Origin: Salinimicrobium catena
GTDB lineage: Bacteria; Bacteroidota; Bacteroidia; Flavobacteriales; Flavobacteriaceae
Direction of reading: 5' to 3'
Assembly (NCBI RefSeq): GCF_900102915.1
Contig: NZ_FNGG01000002.1
Coordinates: 585,097-649,096 of the forward strand
Length of the DNA stretch: 64,000 nucleotides
In this document: one piece after another, positions 20,462-44,611 of the stretch
How the letters are laid out: the number at the start of each line of letters is the position of its first letter
Position numbering within the stretch: the stretch's first letter is position 1
Notes under the pieces: model-generated
Seen by the model: the letters and a program-made list of their open reading frames with translations, nothing else
What the model was told of the DNA's origin: nothing
Databases searched by the model: none
Program-made: the position numbers and the translations under genes

Positions 20462-20500
20462 AAAACAGAAACTGAGAGTTGAACTAAAAATGACAGAATT

Positions 20501-20944
20501 ATGGCAACCAATCTGAATTTTGAAAAATTTGCAAAGGACGCACATGAGTACATCAACTTTTTGGCAAAAGAACTTGGGCATCCAGATGAAAAAGAACGGG
20601 TTTTGATCATTTGGCGGGCGGTAATGCATTGCATAAGAGACAGGATACACCTGGGAGAATCAATGCAACTTATCGCTCCTTTACCCATGATCCTAAAGGG
20701 AATATATGTAGAGGACTGGAAATATTCTGAACATCCGCCGAAGAAATTCCATACCATTGATGAGATGAAGGAAGAAGTGAAGGCCATCCAGCGGCAGTAT
20801 GGTGAGGAAGATTTCCCCTGGAACAAATCTACAGAAGAGATCATAGCCATTACTATACATTCCCTGAAACGTTTCATGCACGATGAACAGCTCCAACAGC
20901 TTAAGGAACAGATGCCCAAAGAACTACAGGAACTGGTAAGCTAG
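20501..20944 (+). CDS. DUF2267 domain-containing protein
   Basis: A 147-aa protein recognisable as DUF2267 by its helical repeats: the N-terminal FAKDAHEYINFLAKELG, the RVLIIWRAVMHCIRDRI segment, LPMILKGIYVEDW, and a second helical half ending TIHSLKRFMHDEQLQQLKEQ. No catalytic motif is evident. The protein is probably cytoplasmic. DUF2267 genes often lie among stress genes, but a molecular function is not established. It is a single gene, divergent from the RimK cassette. Confidence 0.85.
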   Translation: MATNLNFEKFAKDAHEYINFLAKELGHPDEKERVLIIWRAVMHCIRDRIHLGESMQLIAPLPMILKGIYVEDWKYSEHPPKKFHTIDEMKEEVKAIQRQYGEEDFPWNKSTEEIIAITIHSLKRFMHDEQLQQLKEQMPKELQELVS

Positions 20945-21042
20945 GATTAATAAGAATTTAATAGTCTTCATTGTTTTTTCACATTTCATTTCATATTGAT
21001 TATTCTTAATCACAAATTTCTGTTAATCAATAAATTGAAGTT

Positions 21043-21071
21043 TTGAAAAAATAAAATATCTTTTACTTTTG
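21043..21071 (+). promoter_or_regulatory. Promoter of a candidate non-coding RNA
   Basis: TTG at 21043-21045 is followed after 18 nt by TACTTTTG (21064-21071), a perfect TAnnTTTG match. The predicted start is near 21078. No open reading frame follows before the terminator at 21297. Confidence 0.6.
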
Positions 21072-21077
21072 GAATAG

Positions 21078-21297
21078 CAAAACAGTTGGACATCGTATGA
21101 TGATTTAACTGTAAATTTTCGAAATCGATGATCGGGTAATTTTTACTGGGGGGCAAAAATTACTTTTAAAATCATTGAAATTGAGAGAAAGAGAACGCCA
21201 GTTTAGCTTGCCGGTAATGTAATAGTTTCCTATACAGCTACATAAGGGTTTAAATTCTCAGATAAGCAGGAACGTTATTCGTTCCTGCTTATTTTTT
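21078..21297 (+). ncRNA. Candidate structured non-coding RNA of about 220 nt
   Basis: The transcript would run from a good promoter to a long terminator and carries no convincing reading frame. Hairpin 1 (21082-21112) has ACAGTT/AACTGT closing an inner CATC/GATG stem. Hairpin 2 (21136-21163) has a perfect 9-bp stem, GTAATTTTT with AAAAATTAC, and a ten-base loop ACTGGGGGGC. A third domain is closed by GAGAA (21191-21195) and TTCTC (21255-21259). The G-rich loop resembles exposed seed loops of regulatory RNAs. 6S RNA was considered, but the 5' end pairs locally rather than with the 3' end. The family is not recognised. Confidence 0.5.
21263..21297 (+). terminator. Strong intrinsic terminator of the candidate ncRNA
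   Basis: A 12-bp perfect stem (TAAGCAGGAACG with CGTTCCTGCTTA) and a 5-nt loop are followed by six T. The only transcript that could use it on this strand is the candidate RNA or read-through from DUF2267. Confidence 0.88.
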
Positions 21298-21304
21298 ATA
21301 CCAA

Positions 21305-21333
21305 AACGGGAATCCAATAATTGGACTCCCGTT
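21305..21333 (-). terminator. Terminator downstream of fhs
   Basis: On the minus strand an inverted repeat (AACGGGA-TCCAA pairing with TTGGA-TCCCGTT with one mismatch, 3-nt loop) is followed by a short T-rich stretch, 27 bp after the fhs stop. Confidence 0.7.
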
Positions 21334-21359
21334 CTTAAAAGGATATAGATCTTGCTCTC

Positions 21360-23045
21360 TTAAATTAGCCCCGAAATATTTCCTTCTTGATCTATGTCAA
21401 TTCTTTCTGATGCAGGATGCCCCGGCAAGCCAGGCATTCTCATCATGTCTCCTGTAATAGGAATTAAAAAGCCTGCCCCGGCTGCGATCTCTATCTCCCT
21501 AACGGTAAGGGTAAAACCTTTTGGCCTGCCCAGCAGCGTGGGATCATCAGACAGTGACTTTTGGGTTTTCGCGATACATACCGGCAGATTATCCAACTTG
21601 AGGTTGGCGATGGTCTTAAGATCCTTTTTGGCTTTTGGACCGAATTCCACTTTTTCTGCGCCGTAAATTCCGGTGGCTATGGTCTCGATCTTAGTGATAA
21701 CATCCATATCCCAGTCATAGAGCGGTGTAAATTCATCCTCACTTTGCTCTACTACCTCCACAACCTTTTCAGCCAGTTCAATAGCGCCTTCTCCCCCACG
21801 GGCCCAGCCATCGGCAACGGCTACTTTCACCTGCATCCTCTCTGCCAGCTCTCTGATCACTTCGATCTCTTCTTCACTATCACTTATGAACTTGTTGATA
21901 GCGATCACCGGGGTGATGTTGTAAAGACGGGCGTTCTCAAGATGCTTTTCAAGGTTAGGCAAACCTTTCTTCAACGCCTCCACATCTGGAGTGGTGAGAC
22001 TGCTTAAAGGAGCGCCACCGTGATATTTCAAAGCTCTTATGGTTGTGGTCAGCACAATGGCTTTAGGTGCAAGACCTGCACTCTGGCATTTGATGTCAAG
22101 GAATTTCTCTGCCCCCAGGTCAGATCCAAATCCCGCCTCGGTCACGGTATAATCTGAAAGGCTCAAGCCCATACGGGTAGCGATCACAGAATTCGTTCCC
22201 TGGGCGATGTTCGCGAACGGTCCGAGGTGGATGATCGCAGGGTTACCTTCTATGGTTTGTACCAGGTTAGGTTTAAGCGCATCCTTCAGCAGGGCGGCCA
22301 TAGAACCTTCAGCCTGCAGGTCTCTTGCGTAAATCGGCCTCTTATCATAAGTATAGCCTACAAAAATATTTCCAAGGCGACGTTTAAGATCTTCCAGGTC
22401 TTCAGCCAGGCACATGATGGCCATGATCTCTGACGCTGCCGTAATATCAAATCCGCTTTCACGGGGTATACCAGATCCTGTTCCTCCCAGGCCTATCACG
22501 ATATTTCTTAGGGAGCGGTCATTCACGTCCATCACCCTTTTCAGGGAAATGGTCCGGGCATCCAGCCCCAGGTTATTTGTCTTGCTCTGCAGGTTATTGT
22601 CGATTAAAGCTGCCAGCAGGTTGTGTGCCTTTTCTATTGCTGAAAAATCCCCGGTAAAATGAAGGTTGATATCTTCCATAGGCAGCACCTGCGAGAATCC
22701 GCCTCCCGTTGCTCCTCCCTTGATCCCGAAGACCGGACCTAAAGAAGGTTCCCGCAGAACCACAGTGGTCTTTTTTCCAATGCGGTTAAGCGCTTCAGAA
22801 AGACCTATGGAAACCGTGGTCTTACCTTCCCCTGCAGGGGTTGGAGAAATAGCAGAAACCAGGATAAGATTTCCCGTCTTTACCTTTTCTCTATCGATCT
22901 TATTAAGCGGGATCTTCGCCTTGTATTTACCGTACATTTCAATGTCATCTGCATCAAGACCAAGTTTTGCTGCAATTAAGGTTATATGTTTCAGCTCTAC
23001 CTGTTGAGCGATCTCCAGATCATTTAAGGGTTTGGTGTTTTTCAT
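21360..23045 (-). CDS. fhs: Formate--tetrahydrofolate ligase
   Basis: A 561-aa cytoplasmic enzyme making 10-formyl-THF from formate, THF and ATP. The P-loop-like TPAGEGKTTVSIGLSEAL, REPSLGPVFGIKGGATGGG, and the C-terminal GAGFLIPITGDMMRMPGLP are family signatures. The ATG at 23043-23045 (MKNTKPLNDLEIAQ) gives the usual family length; the frame stays open 39 codons further upstream but that part shows no Fhs similarity. It is a single gene with its own terminator. Confidence 0.96.
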   Translation of the reverse strand: MKNTKPLNDLEIAQQVELKHITLIAAKLGLDADDIEMYGKYKAKIPLNKIDREKVKTGNLILVSAISPTPAGEGKTTVSIGLSEALNRIGKKTTVVLREPSLGPVFGIKGGATGGGFSQVLPMEDINLHFTGDFSAIEKAHNLLAALIDNNLQSKTNNLGLDARTISLKRVMDVNDRSLRNIVIGLGGTGSGIPRESGFDITAASEIMAIMCLAEDLEDLKRRLGNIFVGYTYDKRPIYARDLQAEGSMAALLKDALKPNLVQTIEGNPAIIHLGPFANIAQGTNSVIATRMGLSLSDYTVTEAGFGSDLGAEKFLDIKCQSAGLAPKAIVLTTTIRALKYHGGAPLSSLTTPDVEALKKGLPNLEKHLENARLYNITPVIAINKFISDSEEEIEVIRELAERMQVKVAVADGWARGGEGAIELAEKVVEVVEQSEDEFTPLYDWDMDVITKIETIATGIYGAEKVEFGPKAKKDLKTIANLKLDNLPVCIAKTQKSLSDDPTLLGRPKGFTLTVREIEIAAGAGFLIPITGDMMRMPGLPGHPASERIDIDQEGNISGLI

Positions 23046-23333
23046 AATTCTGTTTGTTTCCCACAAACGCCGCTGTGGATTAACTTCCTGTTTCTGGATC
23101 AAAGTAAGAGAAAACACAACATTTAAATTATGACGGGAGTCAGTAATTCCTGAATATTTCACTGTTCCAGGATCTTTTACTAAATCTCACAAATAACTGA
23201 TTACCAGTTAATTGTTTTTTGTGCAATATGACTTTAGTCATGTATTATTTTTATTCCGGTTAATATCTTCAGAATCTACTTCCCCGCAGTACCGCCTTCC
23301 CAAAAGTTCTGTAACCTATTAATTTGCAACAAT

Positions 23334-25440: not shown

Positions 25441-25470
25441 TGATCCGGCTGTTTCTTAACAGCCGGATCA
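25441..25470. terminator. Bidirectional terminator between the convergent oxidase and antiporter genes
   Basis: A perfect 13-bp stem (TGATCCGGCTGTT with AACAGCCGGATCA) and TCTT loop sit in the 37-bp gap between the convergent stop codons. The T-runs are weak on both sides, so efficiency is uncertain. Confidence 0.75.
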
Positions 25471-44574: not shown

Positions 44575-44611
44575 AAGGTCCGGAAATTGTTTCCGGACCT
44601 TTTAATTTTTA
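44575..44611 (+). terminator. Intrinsic terminator of the PBP1A gene
   Basis: A 12-bp perfect stem AAGGTCCGGAAA with TTTCCGGACCTT and a 3-nt loop, followed by T-rich TTTAATTTTT. It lies between convergent genes and may serve both. Confidence 0.9.

Follow-up and report, generated by a model that had tools for sequence, protein, structure and literature searches.

Between a DUF2267 protein gene and a convergent gene lies a gap that raises the question of whether it holds an RNA gene of its own and, if so, to which family this RNA belongs and what it might do. A preliminary description had proposed an independently transcribed RNA of about 220 nt, regulatory or of 6S type, whose exposed G-rich loop could bind C-rich targets. 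We examined this proposal in the window, i.e. the whole 64-kb stretch of Salinimicrobium DNA that was analysed, and in related genomes. Coordinates are collected in Table 1.

The predicted RNA gene in the DUF2267-fhs gap

The convergent neighbour is presumably fhs, encoding formate-tetrahydrofolate ligase, the gene named in the preliminary description. The TTG-N18-TACTTTTG promoter, which we take to be of the Bacteroidota type, the 9-bp hairpin with six G in its loop, and the 12-bp terminator followed by six T were all present exactly where they had been placed. The absence of a reading frame was also confirmed: the sole ORF of at least 40 aa located mainly inside the interval is a 48-aa frame with a TTG start, on the opposite strand (21010-21156). 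At the level of its sequence, the interval has the make-up of a small-RNA gene, with its own promoter, a terminator and no ORF.

Table 1. Features of the predicted RNA gene, its neighbours and two related loci. Positions are those of the window, unless another sequence is named.
Feature	Position	Strand	Remarks
DUF2267 protein gene, upstream neighbour	20501-20944	+	PF10025, E 1.4e-16
Upstream box AAATTTCTGTTAATCA, 16 nt	21014-21029	+	Probable activator site
Promoter TTG-N18-TACTTTTG	21043-21071	+	TTG 21043-21045, 18-nt spacer, TACTTTTG 21064-21071
Predicted small RNA, ~220 nt	21078-21297	+	Start inferred; fold, and no + strand ORF of at least 40 aa
5' stem-loop	21082-21112	+	MFE fold; no homologue found
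Stalk and G6 hairpin	21124-21180	+	Matches covariance models of the genus element
G6 hairpin GTAATTTTT-ACTGGGGGGC-AAAAATTAC, 28 nt, 9 perfect pairs	21136-21163	+	
Apical loop ACUGGGGGGC	21145-21154	+	ACUGGGGGG within the loop in 14/14 copies, other stems included
Third structured domain	21185-21259	+	MFE fold; no convincing homologue
Intrinsic terminator TAAGCAGGAACG-TTATT-CGTTCCTGCTTA-TTTTTT, 12 bp + T6	21263-21297	+	
Separate inverted repeat	21306-21332	-	Probably the fhs terminator
fhs (formate-tetrahydrofolate ligase), convergent neighbour	21360-23162	-	Name as in the preliminary description
ORF of the ~140-aa helical protein, own genome	L013, 1548-1970	-	Orthologues in 10 other Salinimicrobium genomes
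tRNA-Pro(GGG)	L156, 1466-1540	-	Anticodon arm carries CUGGGGGGC

The 220 nt fold with -67.2 kcal/mol (z -6.7), and none of 200 shuffles did as well; without the terminator, z was -3.3, again with 0 of 200 shuffles as good. In the MFE fold, the terminator stem pairs onward into the T run, reaching 15 bp. A search of the whole window for perfect 9-bp hairpins with loops of 4 to 10 nt gave 13 records, which are registers of 6 hairpins; 20 mononucleotide shuffles averaged 2.25 records. Among these hairpins, a G run in the loop is seen in the G6 hairpin alone, and this run is the sole G6 on the + strand of the window. Elsewhere, a perfect 12-bp hairpin devoid of a T run is found directly 3' of a gene that is presumably multicopper-oxidase-like (25442-25469), and a perfect hairpin followed by a T run is probably an ordinary terminator (44575-44601).

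Simple scans of positions 20500 to 22000 detected neither end of the gene. Two promoter-like sites were returned, neither of them at 21043-21071, where shuffles give 3.4, and no terminator, where shuffles give 1.4. The promoter is of another type, and the stem of the terminator extends into the T run, which may explain the miss. The strongest case against chance is the comparative evidence, drawn from the sequences of relatives.

As to known families, the Rfam comparison suggested in the preliminary description gave no match for the interval: at the gathering cut-offs of Rfam 15 the 64-kb window had none, and among sub-threshold matches at the interval the lowest E was 0.023 (23.5 bits, cut-off 58.7). 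At the aconitase-like (acn) loci described below, the 9 matches were all tRNAs, in 5 of the 11 loci, and the best sub-threshold match of the acn element of the own genome was on the other strand (27.8 bits, against 100). The proposed 6S type has to be abandoned. The 6S-Flavo model (RF01685) had no match in the window, nor up to E 10 in 20900-21400, and all 12 Salinimicrobium genomes have a genuine copy at another place, which in the own genome is C14:702289-702396, outside the window. An independently promoted, structured RNA, the other half of that proposal, is supported at the level of the sequence by the hairpin conservation, the compensatory changes and the shared box reported below. GibS/FopS (RF04182) was rejected as well: it was not among the matches at the window interval, and the own acn element scored 21.2 bits on the same strand (cut-off 115, E 0.55). 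The G6-loop RNAs would form a new family, apparently restricted to the genus, of which the window gene is a stand-alone member.

The G6 hairpin in Salinimicrobium

At a locus other than that of the window, 11 of the 12 Salinimicrobium genomes have the same 28-nt hairpin without any change. Its exact 24-mer is present in the same proportion of genomes, with two copies in the own genome, and the genome missing it (G001) is 74% complete. Among named genomes, a set that may omit records close to that of the window, 9 of 9 contigs with exact hairpin patterns are from Salinimicrobium. BLAST with a 241-nt query against 99 relatives returned the window itself and, in the own genome and in 10 others of the genus, the part covering the hairpin; the single match in another genus (L012) is inside a coding sequence that we take to be ABC-F-like, and was attributed to chance. 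A pattern search allowing one mismatch, in 199 family genomes, matched four of them, two being Salinimicrobium and two coding-sequence coincidences (L014 and L015, presumably ribonuclease G-like).

Two covariance models were built without the window copy, R1 being made of the 11 acn-locus sequences. The window copy scored 38.3 bits with R1 (E 4.2e-6 over 96,642 bases) and 37.8 bits with R2 (E 7.2e-5). Over 40 relatives, strong R2 matches were confined to the genus (11 genomes), and three weak matches devoid of the loop were obtained (G014, G060 and a second place in G011). R1 yielded five weak matches in other genera among 397 family genomes, also devoid of the loop. Candidates L117-L121, L132 and L133 (other genera) and L134 (G011) were discarded, as by eye the loop is absent and they resemble terminator hairpins or similar structures. 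A mobile origin was rejected too, with no exact pattern match in viral contigs, and short weak matches only in plasmids (4 records) and phages (5 records).

In 11 of 11 species, the hairpin starts 14-22 nt 3' of the stop codon of an ORF of 140-141 aa, and aconitase motifs are found in convergent orientation 176-515 nt beyond it; we take this convergent gene to be aconitase-like. The element reads, in order, ATAGATGAGA, hairpin A with the G6 loop, a linker, hairpin B and TCTCATCTA, forming a three-way-junction RNA, and by eye a terminator-like hairpin then follows in most loci. Over the 11 loci, hairpin A and the 5' outer stem had a mean pairwise identity of 1.000; the 3' outer stem reached 0.964, the ORF 0.749 (74.9%) and hairpin B 0.728. 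Pairing of loop A with hairpin B was considered and rejected, as it is not conserved by eye. Among 249 family genomes, the ~140-aa protein was detected in 3 Salinimicrobium, plus two weak partial matches elsewhere. In G009, its ORF comes after a tRNA-Lys/Lys/Leu cluster.

The compensatory changes whose absence was to count against a structured RNA were found for the family, the window locus itself being present in one genome only. Among the 11 acn sequences, hairpin B contains 3 doubly changed pairs, in 7 cells. None of 500 shuffles reached the score or the cell count, 33 of 500 reached the count of doubly changed pairs, and 122 of 500 that of pair types. R1 also detected two more copies in S. 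marinum (G003), at 52 and 43 bits. Both copies, L122 and L124, keep ACTGGGGGG while their stem sequences differ, mostly still paired. With these 13 sequences, 7 doubly changed pairs and 13 cells were counted. Each of these two values lay beyond all 500 shuffles, and 18 of the 500 reached the number of pair types; because the sequences had been aligned to fit the model, the counts lean towards structure. When partners were slid by +1, 6 doubly changed pairs and 8 cells were still obtained, with 46.8% of the cells pairing, versus 96.9%. In hairpin A and in the outer stem, the double changes come from one sequence each. That the loop ACUGGGGGG is kept on changed, mostly pairing stems favours a function as RNA over one as DNA.

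The two S. marinum copies differ by what precedes them. L124 has in front of it a paralogue of the ORF, with 45% identity to the own protein, and L122 only a short C-terminal ORF remnant, which was significant against the own acn copy (C17; 0 of 1000 shuffles) and not against the acn copy of S. marinum itself (80 of 1000). The window RNA and L122 thus look like ORF-less, stand-alone versions of the element.

Upstream sequences are also shared. A box ending in GTTAATCA precedes the window RNA, and all 11 species have it before the 140-aa ORF as well. Its 16-mer AAATTTCTGTTAATCA is identical between the window and the own acn copy, which gives a score of 16; the best of 2000 shuffles scored 15. 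In 12 of 14 units, i.e. the window and the 11 acn loci, the distance from the end of the box to TAnnTTT is exactly 34 nt, and L122 and L124 have box-like sequences with no TAnnTTT at 34 nt. The motif TGTTAATCA occurs at 2 places in 464 kb, both at G6 units, this stretch having been chosen to include both; its rarity proves little alone, because letter-shuffled versions are not much commoner (mean 5.1). Genus-wide, TTCTGTTAATCA was found at 20 places, 10 of them at G6 units, and in the own genome at 3, 2 of them at G6 units. Several of the other 10 are in coding sequence, and two are beside an integrase-like gene: at L137 and L138 (near 1500), in two species and in similar surroundings, TTCTGTTAATCA is found between the integrase-like gene and an apparent tRNA 3' end.

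How did the window gene arise? Five other genomes carry the DUF2267 gene. In G004, G009 and G010, fhs is convergent behind it after a short gap; by eye, G008 has the same arrangement as far as its contig reaches, and no fhs motif was seen within 1.5 kb in G003. Loop and box are absent from the DUF2267 site in all five, and the gap is empty in the four that have it (G008 on a short contig). An inverted repeat was recognised by eye in this gap in L042-L045 too. From the DUF2267 stop codon to the fhs motif, 179-196 nt were measured in G004, G009 and G010, versus 532 nt here, so that this lineage gained ~340 nt. A single one of the 12 genomes was found to have the window locus. Outside of the box, promoter and hairpin, no convincing homology to the acn unit was detected in 20 comparisons with 500 shuffles each (best 3/500, with L006, then 38 and 50/500; taken as chance). 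The three-way junction with hairpin B and the TAGATGAGA/TCTCATCTA outer stem was rejected for the window copy, which has another stalk and no hairpin B. It has in common with the family the ACUGGGGGG loop on a stem, and the box followed at 34 nt by TAnnTTT. Judged by these parts, it is a variant form of the Salinimicrobium G6-loop RNA, with hairpin B absent and a different stalk. On the simplest reading, the gene is a duplicated unit in which the ORF disappeared while control box and loop stayed, a course that L122 seemingly took separately. Alternatively, it may be a chimera formed around the box, promoter and hairpin blocks.

Possible roles of the loop

We favour, with a probability of about 0.55, the view that the window contains a real, separately controlled small-RNA gene, a stand-alone form of the acn-locus 3' UTR RNA under the same regulator, with a loop acting in trans. 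The core form would be the 3' UTR of the ~140-aa gene beside the aconitase-like gene, and the window gene its ORF-less form. One regulator, binding at the AAATTTCTGTTAATCA box, is predicted to switch on both. Both would expose the ACUGGGGGG loop on the same hairpin, and we infer that the RNA works through this loop, which would act in trans on another RNA or on a protein. The window gene would then provide an extra dose, or an ORF-independent supply, of the same loop. Transcription, trans action and the regulator are all predictions at this stage.

Binding of C-rich targets by the loop, as put forward initially, is possible, and our searches lent it no support. In the own genome, the 9-mer CCCCCCAGT occurs only in the two hairpins, and CCCCCCAG at 18 places, 2 of them the hairpins. 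We compared CCCCCCAG sites in 5 of the 12 genus genomes, with orthology judged by blastn only (16 of 16 non-hairpin sites in the own genome, 30 of 30 in G003, 22 of 22 in G011, 18 of 18 in G007 and 30 of 36 in G002). Among these 116 sites, none in an mRNA was common to all five genomes, for this 8-mer, the only one compared. Three own-genome ORFs with an early sense CCCCCCAG, L158 and L167 (near 1500; judging from their protein sequences, presumably dnaA-like and dnaB-like) and L157, were treated as chance: the dnaA-like site is common only to the own genome and G011 among the five, and the other two are found in the own genome only. By analogy with GsrN and FopS, base pairing through the loop would be somewhat likelier than protein binding.

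Outside the G6 units, the sole one of the 116 sites found in all five genomes (a CTGGGGGG place) is the tRNA-Pro(GGG) gene. The CUGGGGGGC of its anticodon arm, common to 5 of 5 genomes, is identical to nine of the ten bases of the loop ACUGGGGGGC; by our numbering it comprises C32, U33, anticodon GGG, G37, G38, then G39 and C40. This likeness may be anticodon mimicry or coincidence.

Several other explanations were weighed against the trans-acting RNA. The hairpin could be a protein site, most simply for the ~140-aa protein in an autoregulatory loop, with the window RNA and L122 as decoys titrating that or another RNA-binding protein. The ORF or its paralogue does precede the hairpin at all 11 acn loci and at L124, the sequence invariance of loop and stem at the acn loci is as expected for such a site, and the protein is predicted to be all-helical (pLDDT 84), with weak structural neighbours including the S23-family protein 2rld (TM 0.58, E 0.48). 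Yet in L122 and L124 the stems change and the loop stays, so that only the loop would be readable there, and no sign of RNA binding emerged from the protein searches made. These gave no assignment by Pfam (best E 0.014, from one of the 12 members searched, the first having no match), PADLOC (0 matches) or PDB sequences (best E 0.32), and no structural match with E <= 0.001; an hhalign match to one four-helix-like protein (probability 74, E 2.7e-5) covers only 42 columns, too little for assignment. We therefore hold a protein site to be unlikely. More doubtful is a role as decoy or sensor, in which the loop would stand in for the anticodon loop of tRNA-Pro(GGG) and be bound by a protein that reads it, such as prolyl-tRNA synthetase, a tRNA-modifying enzyme or an anticodon nuclease. 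The shared CUGGGGGGC, at the only site present in all five genomes, speaks for it, and a putative anticodon mimic in a synthetase-bound mRNA has been reported (PMC6542539). Against this, any U-G6 loop resembles a GGG anticodon, which leaves the match with little weight, conservation is usual for tRNA genes, the loop measures 8-10 nt in the RNA versus 7 in a tRNA, and we saw no genes linking it to proline or tRNA metabolism. Slightly less probable still is the full scenario of an anticodon-mimic decoy, in which a copy of the tRNA-Pro(GGG) loop was placed at the 3' end of the helical-protein gene, then became stand-alone under the same regulator, and would sense or shield an enzyme reading tRNA-Pro.

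The two remaining alternatives deny the window locus a function as RNA. It might be a functionless, decaying duplicate of the acn-locus unit, as its presence in a single genome and the lack of relatedness to the parent over most of its length could suggest; but box, promoter spacing and hairpin were kept while what lies between them has become unrecognisable, and the locus ends in a strong terminator of its own. The blocks kept are control and hairpin, which is not the pattern expected of decay, and we find this explanation improbable. Finally, the palindrome might act as DNA, whether as a dif-like recombination site, as an operator or as one end of a mobile repeat. It is single copy in 9 of the 11 genomes that have the hairpin, it is exactly conserved, and we can read it as an 11+6+11 layout. 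The changed yet pairing stems and the place behind a shared promoter box speak for RNA, and the viral contigs, phages and plasmids searched above contained no copy, which makes a DNA role very improbable. As a XerCD dif site it was rejected: in the single-contig genome G009 the hairpin is at 0.84 Mb, versus a cumulative skew minimum near 1.6-1.75 Mb, estimated from 20 sampled stretches, and a dnaA-like motif lies in the first 20 kb. Over these 20 stretches (G009 C1, L093-L112), GC skew goes from negative values in the first half, after the dnaA-like motif, to mainly positive ones in the second, opposite to the usual sign.

Comparison with known systems

Small RNAs of environmental Flavobacteria are, to our knowledge, little known. 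An open-access literature search returned no paper on Salinimicrobium small RNAs, and the transcriptome matches listed did not, by title, concern Salinimicrobium transcripts. If the trans-acting RNA reading holds, the genus offers a natural series in which stand-alone small-RNA genes exist beside a relative in an mRNA tail, with the same box and loop and the ORF kept or missing, so that the origin of small RNAs from 3' UTRs becomes directly testable within one genus. In this family with no Rfam match, the invariant G-rich loop would point to a definite partner, identifiable by one pull-down.

GsrN, a stress small RNA of Caulobacter, resembles the G6-loop RNA, as a lineage-restricted small RNA whose exposed homopolymer-rich loop is its most conserved part (PMC5869019). 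Its loop is C-rich, unlike ours, and its shown target is a G tract in the katG leader; GsrN was looked for by way of sigma-EcfG promoters, and some predicted relatives in Rhizobiaceae have a G-rich loop (PMC5869019). The two are likened by description only, and the consulted part of that paper mentions no ORF-bearing form. FopS/GibS of Bacteroides are, similarly, dispersed paralogous small RNAs of Bacteroidota with a short functional stretch in common and a divergent remainder; FopS has its seed in a 5' stretch predicted to be single-stranded, in contrast to a hairpin loop, and no ORF-bearing form is seen in the part of the source consulted (PMC11697453). The 6S-Flavo RNA is, like the window RNA, a structured RNA of Flavobacteria, and differs from it by its genomic place in 12 of 12 genomes and by the lack of a window match. 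In enterobacteria, small RNAs derived from 3' UTRs provide a functional RNA directly after a coding region. The acn element is likewise directly 3' of a coding region; unlike the enterobacterial case, Salinimicrobium would have, in addition, ORF-less stand-alone copies equipped with the promoter box of the parent gene.
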